Virus record (IMG/VR): IMGVR_UViG_3300013101_000071 | Location: 1-26,456 of that record | Source of the DNA: a virus | Length of the DNA: 26,456 nucleotides | Strand: one strand, 5' to 3' | Shown: positions 2,607 through 25,703 of the stretch, in pieces | Numbering within the stretch: position 1 is the stretch's first letter | Layout: every line of letters begins with the position of its first letter | The notes under the pieces: generated by a model | Database searches by the model: none | The model's input: only the letters and a program-made list of their open reading frames with translations | What the model was told of the DNA's origin: nothing | Translations under genes and position numbers: made by a program

Positions 2607-5600
2607 ATGAATTATTTATGGTTAGATGCAGAGACAACTGGATTAGATTCTAATAGAAACGATATTATCCAACTAGCTTGTATACCTATTATTGGAGACA
2701 AGCGTCAAAAATCATTTAATGAATTCTGTCAACCAACGAACTGGGACGCTATTGACCCTGGAGCCACTAGGGTTCATGGTATTACAGAATCTAGAATGAG
2801 AACATTCCAAGAGCAATCGATTATGTTAGATAAACTAATTATCTATCTTAGATCTTTTGGAATAAAATTTGTAATTGCCGGTTTCAATGTGGCTTTTGAT
2901 AAAGGGTTTATCAGTAGTACCTTTATTAAGCATGGTAAATCTAAAGAGTTCTTTGAATTATTTACATTAGATATACATGATACGTTTAAAAGAGCTAAAC
3001 TTGTAAAGTCACAAATATCCACCCCCAATCTAAAGTTAGAGACATTAGCAAATCATTACGGTATTAAAATTAATGCGCATGATGCTCTTTCTGATATAGC
3101 TGCAACAATTGAAGTAGATGATAAAATTGGAACCTTATTAGGTGAGACGATTTACACAGAAGAACAAGAGCAAGAAATAGAAATAAAAATATCAAGAAAG
3201 TTCAAAGAACCGGCTCAACTTCACGTACATTCAATGTACGGAATGGTCGATTCAATTCCTTCCCCCAAAGAGTGGGAAAAATGGTGTGATGATAATGATG
3301 TTCCAGCATTTTCTATAGTTGATCATGGTAACGTTATAGCACTCAACGGTGCCTTAAAGGTTGGTAAGGCTATACCTGGAGCTGGACTATATATTAAATT
3401 CAAAGATGAGGGATTCTTTGCTCTGAATGCCTGGGCAAGTACAGAAAAGGGATACTACAATCTAATGAAACTATCCTCACTAGCTCATCACGATACAGTT
3501 ATGGACCGTGGAAGATCAACTCCGTTAAATACACTTGAACAGTTGTTAGAGTATTCAGAAGGACTTTTATTTGGTGCCCCAGGTGTTGATGGACCAGTTG
3601 GTAAGTATTTACTAGATGGGAAGTTCGATAAAGCTGGAGATATATTTAGAGAGTTGAATATGTTTTTAGGTGAGAGATTGTGGTGGGAATTTACACCAGT
3701 AGACATTAGTCATGAGTTTGTAGCGAATGCTGGGTTTAAAAGGGTATCATATGAAGGCGGAAACTCACAAAAATATTATAATAAATTTCTATCTACATTA
3801 ATAGATAAGTCTGGTGGTAAGTTTATACCGACAAGCGGTGCTCATTTTATAAATCCAGATGATAAATCTATTCAAGATTGTATCTCTAAGACATCCAGAA
3901 AAGATGGTGGATACTATCATCAGTCTTATCACGTTCTTAAAGCTGATGAAATGTATCGTGGATTAAAGAGGCACTTAGGAGATTGGCTCTCTGAAGAGAG
4001 ATATGAATCTATGATAGAGGAAACTCTCTATATAGCAGGTTTAACTAAAGACATAGAAATAAAAAAGGACTTTCATCTTCCTAAGATAGACATCCCTCAG
4101 CACTTAAAAGATAAGACTGATGATTATGATATGCAAATTTACTACTTTATGATGGAAAGAATAAAAGAGCATGGAAGATGGAAAGATGACCCCATATACG
4201 TAGAGAGGTTTAAAAGAGAAGTGGATGTCATTATGAAGAATGAGGCACTAAACTTCATACCTTATTTCTTAGTTTACGAAGACATCTCGACTTATGCACG
4301 TTCAATAGGAATTCTACAGAATATCGCAAGGGGTTCTGCAGGTGGTTCTCTAATGAGTTACTATCTCAAAATCATCCATGTCGATCCCATAAAGGCAGAA
4401 CTGCCTTTCGAAAGGTTCTTAAGTCATGCTCGTATCAGATCAGGTTCATTCCCTGATATTGATATGGATATTGGAGACACTGCTAGGCCAGATGTAATGA
4501 AGTATTTGCAAAAGAAATATGGACTTGGATTTGCTCAAATATGTACTTTCTCTAAAATGAAAACAAAAAATGCAATAAAGGATGTAATGCATGCGCTATA
4601 CGGAAAAAATAGAAACGATCCTGAAGTTAGAGATGTATGTGATACTATACCGGATTCTCCCCAAGGAGTTAGGGAAAAAGATTTCTTATACGGCTTCACT
4701 GATAAAGAAGGAGAATATCACCCTGGACAGATGGATACCAATCAGCACCTTAAGAACTTTTTTGAAATCCATCCGCAAGTAGAAAAGATGGTAGCAGGTA
4801 TGATTGGCTTAATAAGGGGTTGGTCTCGTCATGCTTCTGCTTTTGTTATAGCCACAGTTGATTTGGCATCAGAGAGAGTTCCAACATTAGTAATGGATGA
4901 TGCAAACTTAGGAAAGATATTGGTTACTCAGTATGATGCCGGTATGTGTGAAGAATCAGGTTTGGTTAAGGCTGACATTCTTGGATTAAAGACTTTAGGT
5001 GCAGTATCTGAGTGTCTAGATAGAATTAAAAAGAGCACTGGTTTTGATTATCTTGAAGAAGATGAGAATGGAATGGCACTAATATATAGACTCCCAGAAG
5101 ACGAAGGTGTTTATAATGATTTCTACAATAAAGATACAGATTCATCCTTTCAGTTTAACACTTCGTTAATTAAGGGGTATGTACAAGAGTTTGTGCCAAC
5201 TAAGCGTAAGCATCTTGCAGATATGACTGCCTTATGTAGACCTGGTACTTTAGATGCTGAATGGGAACCTGGAGTTTCAGCAGCTCAATACTATATGGAT
5301 GTGAGAAACGGTAAAACTAAGATGTCATTTATTCATGAAGATTTGCGCCCAATTCTTGGTAGTTCCAATGGGGTATTTGTATATCAAGAAGAGGTGATGC
5401 AATTTCTAGTTGAAATGGGTGGATATACTGCTGAAGAATCAGATCAGATAAGGAATGCAATTGCTAAAAAGAAAGAAGAAGTCATGTTGGCTTCTTTTGA
5501 TAAAATTAGGGTTGAAACTAAAAAACGCGGATGGACGGGAGAACAAACAGAAAAAGTATGTAATCATATCTTAGCATTCTCTAGGTATTCATTTAATAAA

Positions 5601-10075: not shown

Positions 10076-10275
10076 GAATCTGCCACAATTGCTCTTATGA
10101 AGACACCTTAGAATTAGAAGAAGATGAATGGGATGAAGATTCAGTTAAACTCCGTAACCAAGGGATTATTAAAAATGGTAAAACTTCTATAGGGGGTATC
10201 AAAAAGATTTCCGACGAGCAACTACAGCAGTGGTTAACTGATATTAAAGCAGGAAAGGACATACCATGCATTTAA
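10006..10275 (+). CDS. Small zinc-ribbon protein
   Basis: An 89-residue protein with two Cys pairs at its N-terminus (CVNC at residues 6-9, then CHNC), forming a rubredoxin-like or zinc-ribbon knuckle. An acidic patch (ELEEDEWDEDS) and a helical C-terminus (SDEQLQQWLTDIKAGK) follow. It overlaps the previous gene by 70 bases, but the first Cys pair is so close to this ATG that a later start is unlikely. It overlaps the following gene by 10 bases. Such ribbons bind nucleic acid or proteins; the target here is unknown. Confidence 0.72.
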   Translation: MRYYWCVNCGYSHDYGKDKKRGIGICHNCSYEDTLELEEDEWDEDSVKLRNQGIIKNGKTSIGGIKKISDEQLQQWLTDIKAGKDIPCI

Positions 10276-10595
10276 ATTATCCATTTACTGAGCACATGTG
10301 TCAGGAGAATATATCTGATGCAGTGAATGCATTTTTAGAAAAAGAAAAGATCTTTCCAGATGTAATTTATCTTCCAAATCATGTAATGGGCGAATTTGTT
10401 AGAGCGGCTGAGCCGTATATAACTACTATGGTATATAAAGATGAGCCAGAGATGTTCGTTCTCACAGGTGTTGGTGTTTTGCCAGTAAAAATCATTAAAG
10501 ACCACATATATTGCGGTAAAGATGATAAATTTATAAGAATTGCCAATGAGAGCGTAGAAAAAGAAGTAAATGGCATCTTATTGGGAGGCAGATAA
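10266..10595 (+). CDS. Small phage protein, unknown function
   Basis: A 109-residue mixed alpha/beta protein with an SD-like AGGAAAGG seven bases before its ATG. The pattern of DVIYLP, MFVLTGVGVLPVKII and KFIRIA suggests beta strands, with no catalytic motif. Its GGGAGG near the 3' end is the likely ribosome site of the next gene, and its TAA shares its last A with that gene's ATT start. No function assigned. Confidence 0.75.
   Translation: MHLNYPFTEHMCQENISDAVNAFLEKEKIFPDVIYLPNHVMGEFVRAAEPYITTMVYKDEPEMFVLTGVGVLPVKIIKDHIYCGKDDKFIRIANESVEKEVNGILLGGR
10583..10588 (+). promoter_or_regulatory. SD supporting an ATT start for SbcD
   Basis: GGGAGG lies six bases before the ATT at 10595 (or three before the ATA at 10592). 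No ATG, GTG or TTG exists in this frame between the stop at 10547 and the GTG at 10682, so this SD decides the start. Confidence 0.6.
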
Positions 10596-11638
10596 TTAAA
10601 ATCTTATTCATTGGTGATCCACATTTAAAAATAACTAGATTTGATTTAGCTCTTAAGTTTTTAAGTTGGGTCAATGATGTTGTGGCTGATAAGAGACCAG
10701 ATATTGTTGTCAACCTAGGTGATACGTTCGACACACATGCCGTATTGCGCTCAGAGATTAAGAATGAAGTCATGGATCATATTCAGCACTGCATTAAGCA
10801 CACATCACAAAATAAATACTATTATATCCTTGGTAATCATGATTTCTATACACCTAAGTCTAGTAAGTACCATGCTCTAAAGGATTGGAAAACAATAGCC
10901 AACTTGCATATAATAGATAAGAGATTTGATATTGAAAACATTACGATGGTGCCATATATGTATAAATACTCAGAGTTTCCGAAAGAGACTCGAGAAATTT
11001 GTATTTGCCACCAGACAATTATTGGTGCTAGCTATGGATATACACGACCTGATGCAGGGGTTGAAGCCGAAGCAGTGTCGGCAGAGATTATGATCAGTGG
11101 ACATGTTCACCTCAAACAAGAGTTTGGCAAGGTTATTTACCCTGGAAGTCCATTCTCACAGAGCGTTAATGACATAGACCAAGTTAAAGGGCTAATGTTG
11201 TTCGACACAGAGACATATGAAAAAGAGTTTATTGAGTGTCCACTGCCTATGTGGATTGGTAAGAAATTTGAACTTACAAAAGATTTTAATGCATTAAACA
11301 TGCATGCTGAATTAGAACTCATGTTGGGTGTAGGCATGGGAGCTGGAAGTGATGATCACTGGGTTGTAGAAGTATCTGGTCCAAAGGCAGAGATATTAGC
11401 ATATCAAAGCTCTAATGAGCATAGTGAGCTCTTGAAATATTTTGATATTCAATTTAAACCTATCTTTACTGATAAAGAAAAGAAGAAAGTAGAGATTAAA
11501 GGGTTATCAATGGGTCATGTAGTTGGGGAGTACTTCAATAAGGTGTACAAGGGATCAGCTGATAAGGATTTATTAATAGCTAAGTCTTTAGAAATACTAG
11601 ATAAAGTTAAGCAAAGATCAGCAAAGGCAAAGATGTAA
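10595..11638 (+). CDS. SbcD/Mre11/gp47-like DNA exonuclease subunit (ATT start)
   Basis: A calcineurin-type metallophosphatase that would work with the SbcC/gp46 ATPase at the left edge in DNA end processing and recombination. From the ATT start it is 347 residues long. Metal-binding motifs are GDPHLK (D8, H10), GDTFDTH (D43), GNHD (81-83 for N-H-D) and SGHVHL (H170, H172). The first canonical start, GTG at 10682, would remove the D8-x-H10 motif, which is essential in this family. The ATT at 10595 places KILFIGDPH exactly where family members begin with MKIL...GD.H, and has a good SD. ATA at 10592 is the other option. The family assignment is secure; the start codon is a reasoned choice. Confidence 0.9.
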   Translation: MKILFIGDPHLKITRFDLALKFLSWVNDVVADKRPDIVVNLGDTFDTHAVLRSEIKNEVMDHIQHCIKHTSQNKYYYILGNHDFYTPKSSKYHALKDWKTIANLHIIDKRFDIENITMVPYMYKYSEFPKETREICICHQTIIGASYGYTRPDAGVEAEAVSAEIMISGHVHLKQEFGKVIYPGSPFSQSVNDIDQVKGLMLFDTETYEKEFIECPLPMWIGKKFELTKDFNALNMHAELELMLGVGMGAGSDDHWVVEVSGPKAEILAYQSSNEHSELLKYFDIQFKPIFTDKEKKKVEIKGLSMGHVVGEYFNKVYKGSADKDLLIAKSLEILDKVKQRSAKAKM

Positions 11639-12119: not shown

Positions 12120-12462
12120 GTTAACTAATAATGAGGACTATCAACAGGACTTATGGTTGCATCATATAAATGGTAACCAACCATCCACTTTTGCGCAAAA
12201 ATTAACAAGCATAAGACATGAACATGATAAGCAAGAACGATTTATGCATGCCCTTTCGGGTTTCTTTATTGATCCACCTTCTTCTAAATTAATCAAATTA
12301 TTAGATAGTTTTTCAGATTTTGAAAGATCTATAATGTTTTTATTACTTTTAGGTTTTTCAGTTAATGATGTATCTGAGTATAAAGGTATAAGTTGTATTA
12401 GGATTAAACAATCTATTGCATCTATTAAGAAACACACAGTTTGGAAGGAATACGGTGTTTAA
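12076..12462 (+). CDS. Small helix-turn-helix protein before terminase
   Basis: A 128-residue helical protein. The frame opens at a TTG (12046), but an AGAAGG (12065-12070) just upstream of ATG codons at 12073 and 12076 makes 12076 the better start. The C-terminal 55 residues (SDFERSIMFLLLLGFSVNDV, then EYKGISCIRIKQSIASIKKH) fit a helix-turn-helix like sigma region 4 or LuxR-type domains, with GF-x-VNDV as the first helix and turn. The stop overlaps the next ATG as TAATG, so it is translationally coupled to the small-terminase-like gene. It could be a regulator of late genes or an extra DNA-recognition part of the packaging machine. Confidence 0.68.
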   Translation: MKARRASEVQQSINELTNNEDYQQDLWLHHINGNQPSTFAQKLTSIRHEHDKQERFMHALSGFFIDPPSSKLIKLLDSFSDFERSIMFLLLLGFSVNDVSEYKGISCIRIKQSIASIKKHTVWKEYGV

Positions 12463-13082
12463 TGGCTTTAAAACGAGATTTTAATGAAGAAGAGCGATAT
12501 GGACTTACTCAAGAAGAGATTAAGATAGGTCAAAGATATCTTCGCAAGCATAAGACTGCTGGTAAGATTGCAAATCCTCAAGCTCTCAAGCTATTTGAGA
12601 TGTATCTAATAGGTCATAGTTTTCATGAAATACAACAAAACTTTACTCAACATCCCGTTGAGCAGATAATACTCACTGCTGCACTTAATAAGTGGGCCAC
12701 AGATAGAGATAGCATGATGCACACACTTAGAGATCGTGTACAGGCAAAGGTTGTTAAATCTGTAATTGAGCAAGTTGACTTCTTAACAGCCATGCTATCT
12801 GTAAGTAGTGCTGAACATGTGGATGTTATGCGTAAGTATGCACAAGATCCCCAAAGCAATCCTAAACCCAAATTACGCGTTGAGTCAATTAAAGAATATA
12901 GAGAAGTAGTTGAAACACTTTATAAAATAGTAGCCGGATCTACAACAGGATCCAAGACTAAAGAGTCTGCTCTATTTGGGGCATTACAGCCTAAACAAGA
13001 GGCTGTTTCGGCCTCAGGCGGCAACGAAGAAGAAGATGTAGCCTCTATGATAGAAGCGTCAATGGAATCTGAAAATGGCTAA
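12462..13082 (+). CDS. Terminase small subunit-like DNA-binding protein
   Basis: A 206-residue protein directly upstream of, and overlapping by eight bases, the large terminase gene. I chose the ATG at 12462, which overlaps the previous stop, over the in-frame TTG at 12441. Residues about 35-80 (NPQALKLFEMYLIGHSFHEI, then a short turn and a helix ending in ALNKWATDRD) look like an HTH; a long helical region follows (AKVVKSVIEQVDFLTAML). The C-terminus is acidic and Ala/Ser-rich. Small terminases bind packaging-site DNA and control the large subunit. The call rests mainly on position and HTH pattern. Confidence 0.72.
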   Translation: MALKRDFNEEERYGLTQEEIKIGQRYLRKHKTAGKIANPQALKLFEMYLIGHSFHEIQQNFTQHPVEQIILTAALNKWATDRDSMMHTLRDRVQAKVVKSVIEQVDFLTAMLSVSSAEHVDVMRKYAQDPQSNPKPKLRVESIKEYREVVETLYKIVAGSTTGSKTKESALFGALQPKQEAVSASGGNEEEDVASMIEASMESENG

Positions 13083-17042: not shown

Positions 17043-17885
17043 ATGTCATGGATAATTTTAGAAGGATTAGATCGTACTGGAAAAACTAGTGTTGCTAATC
17101 TATATAAATCTAAAGGTTTTGAAGTTATTCATTTCTCAGCTCCAGATAAAAAATACAAAGAAGATGGGTACATAGGGCCTTCATATTTTGAAGATATCAT
17201 GGAACTCTATGTTAGGTGCTCTGGTTTAGATATAGTTTTTGACAGATCGATTCATGGCGAATTGGTGTGGCCTCAGGTATATGATCGCGAATCTGTATTA
17301 GAAAGAGATGAAATAACAGAACTAACAGAGATGGAAAATCAAAACGGTGCACAACATATTATGATGTATGATTCTGATGTTAAAAAACATTGGGAGCGAT
17401 GTGTTAAAAATAATGAACCCTTAACAGAGAAACAATTCAGACATGCTAGAAAACTGTTTGATGAAGTGGCGGTAAAGAATGGCTTTGCAAGGAAAAAACT
17501 TACCGATTTTGGACTTCTCCCTACGGAAAGATCTTCCAGTGACAGCGGTGATAGCAGTGGAGATGATACTCTTAATGGTGAAACTGTGTCCACACGAACT
17601 TCGCAGAAAGATTCGGTATCAGGTAAAGAAAAGAGCAACAGCAATGGCGCAGCCAAGTATAGATTGGAAAAGGCGAATGCTATCAATTCTGTATTGCAAT
17701 CTCGATTGATTAAGAAAAAAGGTGAAATCTATGATTTGCTAGAGCAAGACTTAAGAAATCATTTAGAAGAAAGACTTGGTGTGATCCTTGGTGGAGAGTT
17801 AGAAAAAGGTTTCACAAAAGATGAAGTACAAATACTTAAACTATTTTGTAAAAGAACTAAAAAGAAAGCAGAGGAGAACAGATGA
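17043..17885 (+). CDS. P-loop deoxynucleoside monophosphate kinase-like protein with extra C-terminal domain
   Basis: A 280-residue protein in three parts. Residues 1 to about 160 are a small P-loop kinase of the thymidylate kinase group: ILEGLDRTGKTS (5-16, with K14) and FDRS (66-69, the DR(S/Y/F) motif). A typical lid is hard to place and the domain is short. Residues 163-203 are a Ser/Asp/Gly low-complexity linker. Residues 205-280 form a helical domain ending in FTKDEVQILKLFCKRTKKK. It lies between portal and protease genes, an unusual place for nucleotide metabolism. The following gene overlaps it as ATGA. Activity on a nucleotide is inferred; the C-terminal domain may be a separate morphogenesis protein joined by the linker. 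Confidence 0.75.
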   Translation: MSWIILEGLDRTGKTSVANLYKSKGFEVIHFSAPDKKYKEDGYIGPSYFEDIMELYVRCSGLDIVFDRSIHGELVWPQVYDRESVLERDEITELTEMENQNGAQHIMMYDSDVKKHWERCVKNNEPLTEKQFRHARKLFDEVAVKNGFARKKLTDFGLLPTERSSSDSGDSSGDDTLNGETVSTRTSQKDSVSGKEKSNSNGAAKYRLEKANAINSVLQSRLIKKKGEIYDLLEQDLRNHLEERLGVILGGELEKGFTKDEVQILKLFCKRTKKKAEENR

Positions 17886-25061: not shown

Positions 25062-25703
25062 ATGAAGAAAGCTATATATATATGTCTTGAAGGAACAGAA
25101 GGTGTTGGCAAGACTACACAGACACAAAATCTTGTAAACTATCTAAAAGACAAGGGGTATAAGGTACTACAAACAAAAGAACCTGGAACACCCTTATCAC
25201 CACTAACTATGACTCTTCGAGGTATCATGTTAGATAATCAATATGATAAAGAGTTAACAGCTCCCGCAAGAGAACTTATCAGTCAAGCAATCAGATCAAT
25301 ACATTTAGAAAGAGTAATTAAACCTGCAATGAATAAGTATGACTTTATCATTCAAGATCGTGGGGTATTATCTGGTTATGCATATGGAACAGCATGTGGT
25401 AACAGTTTTGCAGAAATACGTAATTTAGCAGAGTATGTGGCTGGATCTCCATGTCCAGAAGGTTTATACGATAAAGTTCTATACCTAAGAGGGGATGTCT
25501 CTAAGGGGTTGGAGATTGCGAAATCTTCAAAACAAGAATTTAAGCAGGGTGATGCAATGGAATCTCGTGGAGATTCTTTTATGCATAAGGTATCTGATAA
25601 TATGGATACTATGTCATGTAACTTTAATACGGGCATAGTTGATGTAGATGGTAAGGGGATTGAAGAAGTATTTTCAGAAATACGAAACATATTAGAGGTC
25701 TAA
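25062..25703 (+). CDS. tmk: Thymidylate kinase (dTMP kinase)
   Basis: A 213-residue P-loop kinase that phosphorylates dTMP to dTDP for phage DNA synthesis. Motifs: P-loop LEGTEGVGKTTQ (9-20, K17), KEPGTP (39-44, in place of the usual REPGGT), and QDRGVLSGYAYG (the DR motif and the AY-containing nucleotide site). Length fits the family. SD GGAGG is four bases before the ATG. A second kinase-like gene lies at 17043, but this one is the complete, canonical copy. The following gene starts three bases after its stop. Confidence 0.92.
   Translation: MKKAIYICLEGTEGVGKTTQTQNLVNYLKDKGYKVLQTKEPGTPLSPLTMTLRGIMLDNQYDKELTAPARELISQAIRSIHLERVIKPAMNKYDFIIQDRGVLSGYAYGTACGNSFAEIRNLAEYVAGSPCPEGLYDKVLYLRGDVSKGLEIAKSSKQEFKQGDAMESRGDSFMHKVSDNMDTMSCNFNTGIVDVDGKGIEEVFSEIRNILEV

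Follow-up and report, generated by a model that had tools for sequence, protein, structure and literature searches.

The nuclease gene lies at 10595–11638 of the window, by which we mean the whole stretch of DNA that was analysed, a record of an uncultivated virus, 26,456 bases long and with no other contig; the gene and all the features of its junction described below are on the plus strand. Its product, an SbcD/gp47-like nuclease of 347 amino acids, matches the Metallophos domain PF00149 (calcineurin-like phosphoesterase, E = 9.9e-14) and the SbcD-like subunit family PHROG 100 (E = 6.4e-34). The metal-site motifs GDPH, GDTFD, GNHD, HQT and SGHVH are all present, and the key metal-binding residues are invariant in the alignment with homologues. 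Other genes of the window code for a DNA polymerase, a UvsX-like recombinase, a single-strand binding protein, a terminase, a portal and a major head protein. The stretch is therefore a fragment of a large tailed phage. No SbcC/gp46 ATPase partner was identified within this 26-kb fragment; an AAA_23 (gp46-like) protein of about 580 amino acids is found in 11 of 11 long relatives.

Two other regions of the window deserve mention. PHROG 761, a phage thymidylate kinase family, is matched by separate genes at 17043–17885 (E = 1e-4) and 25062–25703 (E = 5e-19), one of which may be a diverged copy. Directly upstream of the DNA polymerase gene, positions 2555–2610 hold two copies of AGGCCT followed by TTTTCTTTTT, which together fold into a strong hairpin (60 nt, -21.9 kcal/mol) resembling either an intrinsic terminator or an operator of translation. 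The polymerase itself probably starts at the ATG at 2607 and not at 2580, since its relatives align from residue 10.

At the 5′ end of the nuclease gene, our reading of the window bears out the preliminary description. The stop of the upstream ORF and an ATT codon are joined as TAATT (10593–10597), the last A of the upstream TAA (10593–10595) being the first base of the ATT (10595–10597), a stop-start overlap of the kind expected in a translationally coupled gene pair. A Shine-Dalgarno-like (SD) site, GGGAGG (10583–10588, core GGAGG), ends six bases before the ATT, and the same type of junction is written TAATG elsewhere in the window, at 12460–12464. The upstream ORF (10266–10595, 109 amino acids) has no family match and no clear homologue in the loci of relatives, and RNA folding around the nuclease start is nothing unusual (z = 0.74). 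A TGA at 10547–10549 precedes the nuclease frame, which stays open over 10550–11638 and, as had been claimed, is devoid of ATG, GTG and TTG until position 10682, where the first canonical codon is a GTG (10682–10684). That GTG was rejected as the start, since it would remove the D-P-H catalytic motif, which was found where it had been described, at 10616–10624; no canonical in-frame start thus retains the conserved N-terminus.

The overlap of the two frames at 10550–10592, and the position of 10682 as the first canonical codon, could also suggest that a -1 frameshift from the upstream ORF yields the nuclease as a fusion, or that it exists only as a truncated protein from the GTG. We regard this as very improbable, given that the truncated form would be deprived of the D-P-H motif, that by eye the overlap contains no classical slippery heptamer (A GAA AAA G would slip only at the A site), and that the relatives start independently with ATG at the corresponding position.

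Homologues with about 35–58% identity were gathered by IMG/VR searches, and 58 distinct complete sequences (window included) were collected regardless of their start codon. The best relative stands at about 58% identity and no close relative was found; a search of cultured phages by DNA similarity to the window gave no match, and a scan of genome contigs gave a single locus of 146,658 bp, the length of one contig present in IMG/VR. Among cultured T4-like phages, 692 records carry a homologue of gp47. The ATT falls exactly in the Met1 column of the homologues, where 48 have ATG, five GTG, two TTG and three a non-canonical codon. The presence of ATG, GTG or TTG in 55 of the 58 indicates, from the alignment, that the placement of the ATT in this column is more than chance, and the window TAATT corresponds to a TAATG-type junction in which the third base of the start has been altered.

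The in-frame codon directly before the ATT, an ATA at 10592–10594, would likewise be a rare start, and the resulting protein (fMet-Ile-Lys-Ile-Leu...) would fit the M-x-K/R N-termini that are common in the nuclease family. However, the main point against initiation at this AUA is that it lies only 3 nt from GGAGG, versus 6 nt for the ATT; in addition, the TAATT/TAATG overlap agrees with many relatives, and in none of the other rare-start genes described below (L164, L014 and L232) is the start immediately preceded by AUA. We therefore consider initiation at 10592 to be quite unlikely.

The three non-canonical cases among the 58 are the window (ATT), the L164/L207 nuclease, in which an ATT follows AAGAGGTG, and the L014 nuclease, in which a CTG shares bases with the upstream stop (CTGA, against ATGA in relatives). 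Two metagenomes, 3300031673 and 3300031578, each yielded an assembly of the L164 sequence; the two contigs are without mismatch over 2,527 nt across the junction, ATT included, and differ elsewhere by one base in 8,264. A further ATT, preceded by AAGGAG at 8 nt, was found in L232 by a directed pattern search for ATT, ATC or ATA before the N-terminal motif, whose only other hits were unrelated short frames and both contigs of L164. L232 was omitted from the rate estimate given below, its search being start-specific. Upstream of the L232 ATT the same frame also has ATA and GTT (4593–4623), and other codons are possible as the exact start.

One phage contig from the clade, 146,658 bp long (LNEN01000305.1), is binned in a Cytophagales genome. 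Strong Shine-Dalgarno sites are rare in Bacteroidota, and the window genes have strong ones despite that binning.

To evaluate whether the loss of the canonical start is special to the nuclease family, every stop-to-stop frame of 150 codons or more in the same contig pool was assigned to a family, and each gene was examined for a canonical codon no more than two residues from the consensus start of its relatives. Three of the 53 evaluable nucleases have no canonical start, compared to none of the 556 evaluable genes in 19 other families once N-terminal extensions are taken into account (Fisher p = 0.0006; p = 0.007 without the window). The comparison allows each gene five codons, so that by our estimate a rare start would be masked by chance in about a fifth of cases. 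For every flagged gene of the other families, a canonical codon is present further up the open frame, mostly 3–8 codons away and in a few cases only at a much greater distance (N-terminal extensions).

These counts bear on the second option that the preliminary description had offered, that an ATG was changed by mutation or by sequencing error. An assembly or sequencing error at a true TAATG junction with an ordinary ATG start would need a single base, TAATG is a common junction of the nuclease gene in relatives, and the window sequence is known from a single assembly. However, independent ATT and CTG cases occur at the same codon in other phages, one of them (L164) in two assemblies, no comparable loss is seen among the 556 other gene starts, and the SD sites are stronger at the rare-start genes, so that an error now seems unlikely. 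Although this class of event is real, the window's own ATT could still be an error, because it has only distant relatives (at best about 58% identity) and a single assembly. As for mutation, the claim is true in the evolutionary sense, as most of the close kin have ATG.

An SD core of at least 5 nt precedes all four rare-start genes, compared to 12 of the 48 ATG homologues (p = 0.007; p = 0.02 without L232). The rare-start cores are GGAGG, GAGGTG, GAGGT and AAGGAG, located 4–8 nt before the start. A stop-start overlap of the TAATG or ATGA type is found at 27 of the 58 junctions, window and L014 included, and also in the cultured Myxococcus phage Mx1 (TAATG) and Vibrio phage KVP40 (ATGA). The L164 and L232 starts have no overlap with the upstream stop, and coupling is thus not common to all the rare-start cases.

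A tree of 59 nucleases requires four changes to explain the four rare starts, each of which has ATG-started sister lineages, and this suggests that the canonical start was lost at least four times in this family. The three ATT cases are inside one supported group of 15 rows (98/98), and an older ATT in that group followed by several returns to ATG could also have produced the pattern, although such a history needs more steps on the tree. Most relatives of the nuclease keep ATG, and hence a weak start is not something that the clade needs.

Taken together, these comparisons of sequences make it quite likely that the ATT at 10595 is a genuine but inefficient nuclease start, aided by its SD site and by coupling, and by analogy with other AUU-started genes it would keep the nuclease at a low level. 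Of the two options first proposed, a rare codon that limits the nuclease level is thus the better supported. A decayed start in a gene turning into a pseudogene would be consistent with the fact that a change away from ATG is a usual first lesion. However, the 347-codon frame is intact with every catalytic motif and a good SD site, and the L164 and L232 frames are intact as well, which makes decay hard to believe.

If the ATT is the start, the fMet-tRNA would read AUU with a third-base mismatch and initiation would be inefficient. The GGAGG at 6 nt could partly rescue it, and ribosomes terminating the upstream gene on the overlapping UAA could also assist; an SD within the overlap helps reinitiation, and an excess of IF3 reduces it (PMC2268962). 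In Staphylococcus aureus, AUU and AUA starts with an extended SD give about 10% of the AUG output (PMC13009471), and IF3 represses non-canonical starts, the studied cases being infC (ATT) and sigR (GTC) (PMC5472188). We therefore expect that AUU would yield a small, possibly IF3-dependent share of the nuclease that AUG would give, and a level that is low relative to its neighbours. Initiation would probably be IF3-sensitive, as in infC and pcnB. No phage-encoded IF3 was detected in the 11 long relatives and no tRNA in the window, and therefore no phage-supplied initiation machinery was found.

The gp47 protein degrades DNA together with gp46. An excess of the two might harm the phage's own DNA ends, and a low level might therefore suit the phage, which we offer as conjecture. 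A broader and more doubtful proposal, which we advance tentatively, is that in this clade of large T4-like phages the nuclease repeatedly and independently gains AUU or CUG starts together with compensating strong SD sites, and that these would act as a convergent IF3-sensitive throttle, keeping the nuclease below its SbcC partner or delaying it in infection.

ATT is an extremely rare start codon and the documented AUU-started genes are very few. A switch from AUG to AUU was counted once among 61,358 ancestral AUG starts in a survey of close genomes of bacteria and archaea (PMC5622118). In the literature searched, which included few subscription papers, no phage gp47 gene had previously been described as starting with ATT. 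A phage gene family that appears to have lost the canonical start four or more times, with no such loss in neighbouring families, would offer a natural experiment on start-codon strength. In addition, gene callers limited to ATG, GTG and TTG would cut the catalytic N-terminus off such nucleases.

In regards to known systems, the nuclease shares its AUU codon with Escherichia coli infC, which begins with ATT, is controlled by IF3, and is kept at a low level by discrimination against its start codon (PMC5472188 and references therein). However, infC encodes the discriminating factor, such that its AUU closes a feedback loop, which the phage nuclease cannot do. E. coli pcnB, also with an AUU start and, as far as it is cited in PMC13009471 (Binns and Masters 2002), translationally limited by it, similarly codes for an enzyme acting on nucleic acids, but it is a bacterial chromosomal gene whereas the phage gene lies in a stop-start overlap. 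The S. aureus genes cvfC1 (AUU) and ccpN (AUA) combine a non-canonical start with a strong SD as seen here (PMC13009471); their starts are conserved over species, whereas the rare nuclease starts are scattered among mostly ATG relatives. In Streptomyces sigR, a rare start of a different codon (GTC) sets protein ratios and repression by IF3 was shown (PMC5472188), the partner ratio being demonstrated for sigR and conjecture for the nuclease. Finally, the T4-type gp47/SbcD genes, such as KVP40 gene 47, belong to the same protein family and have the same kind of stop-start junction but, unlike the window, the cultured relatives Mx1 and KVP40 start their nuclease with ATG.
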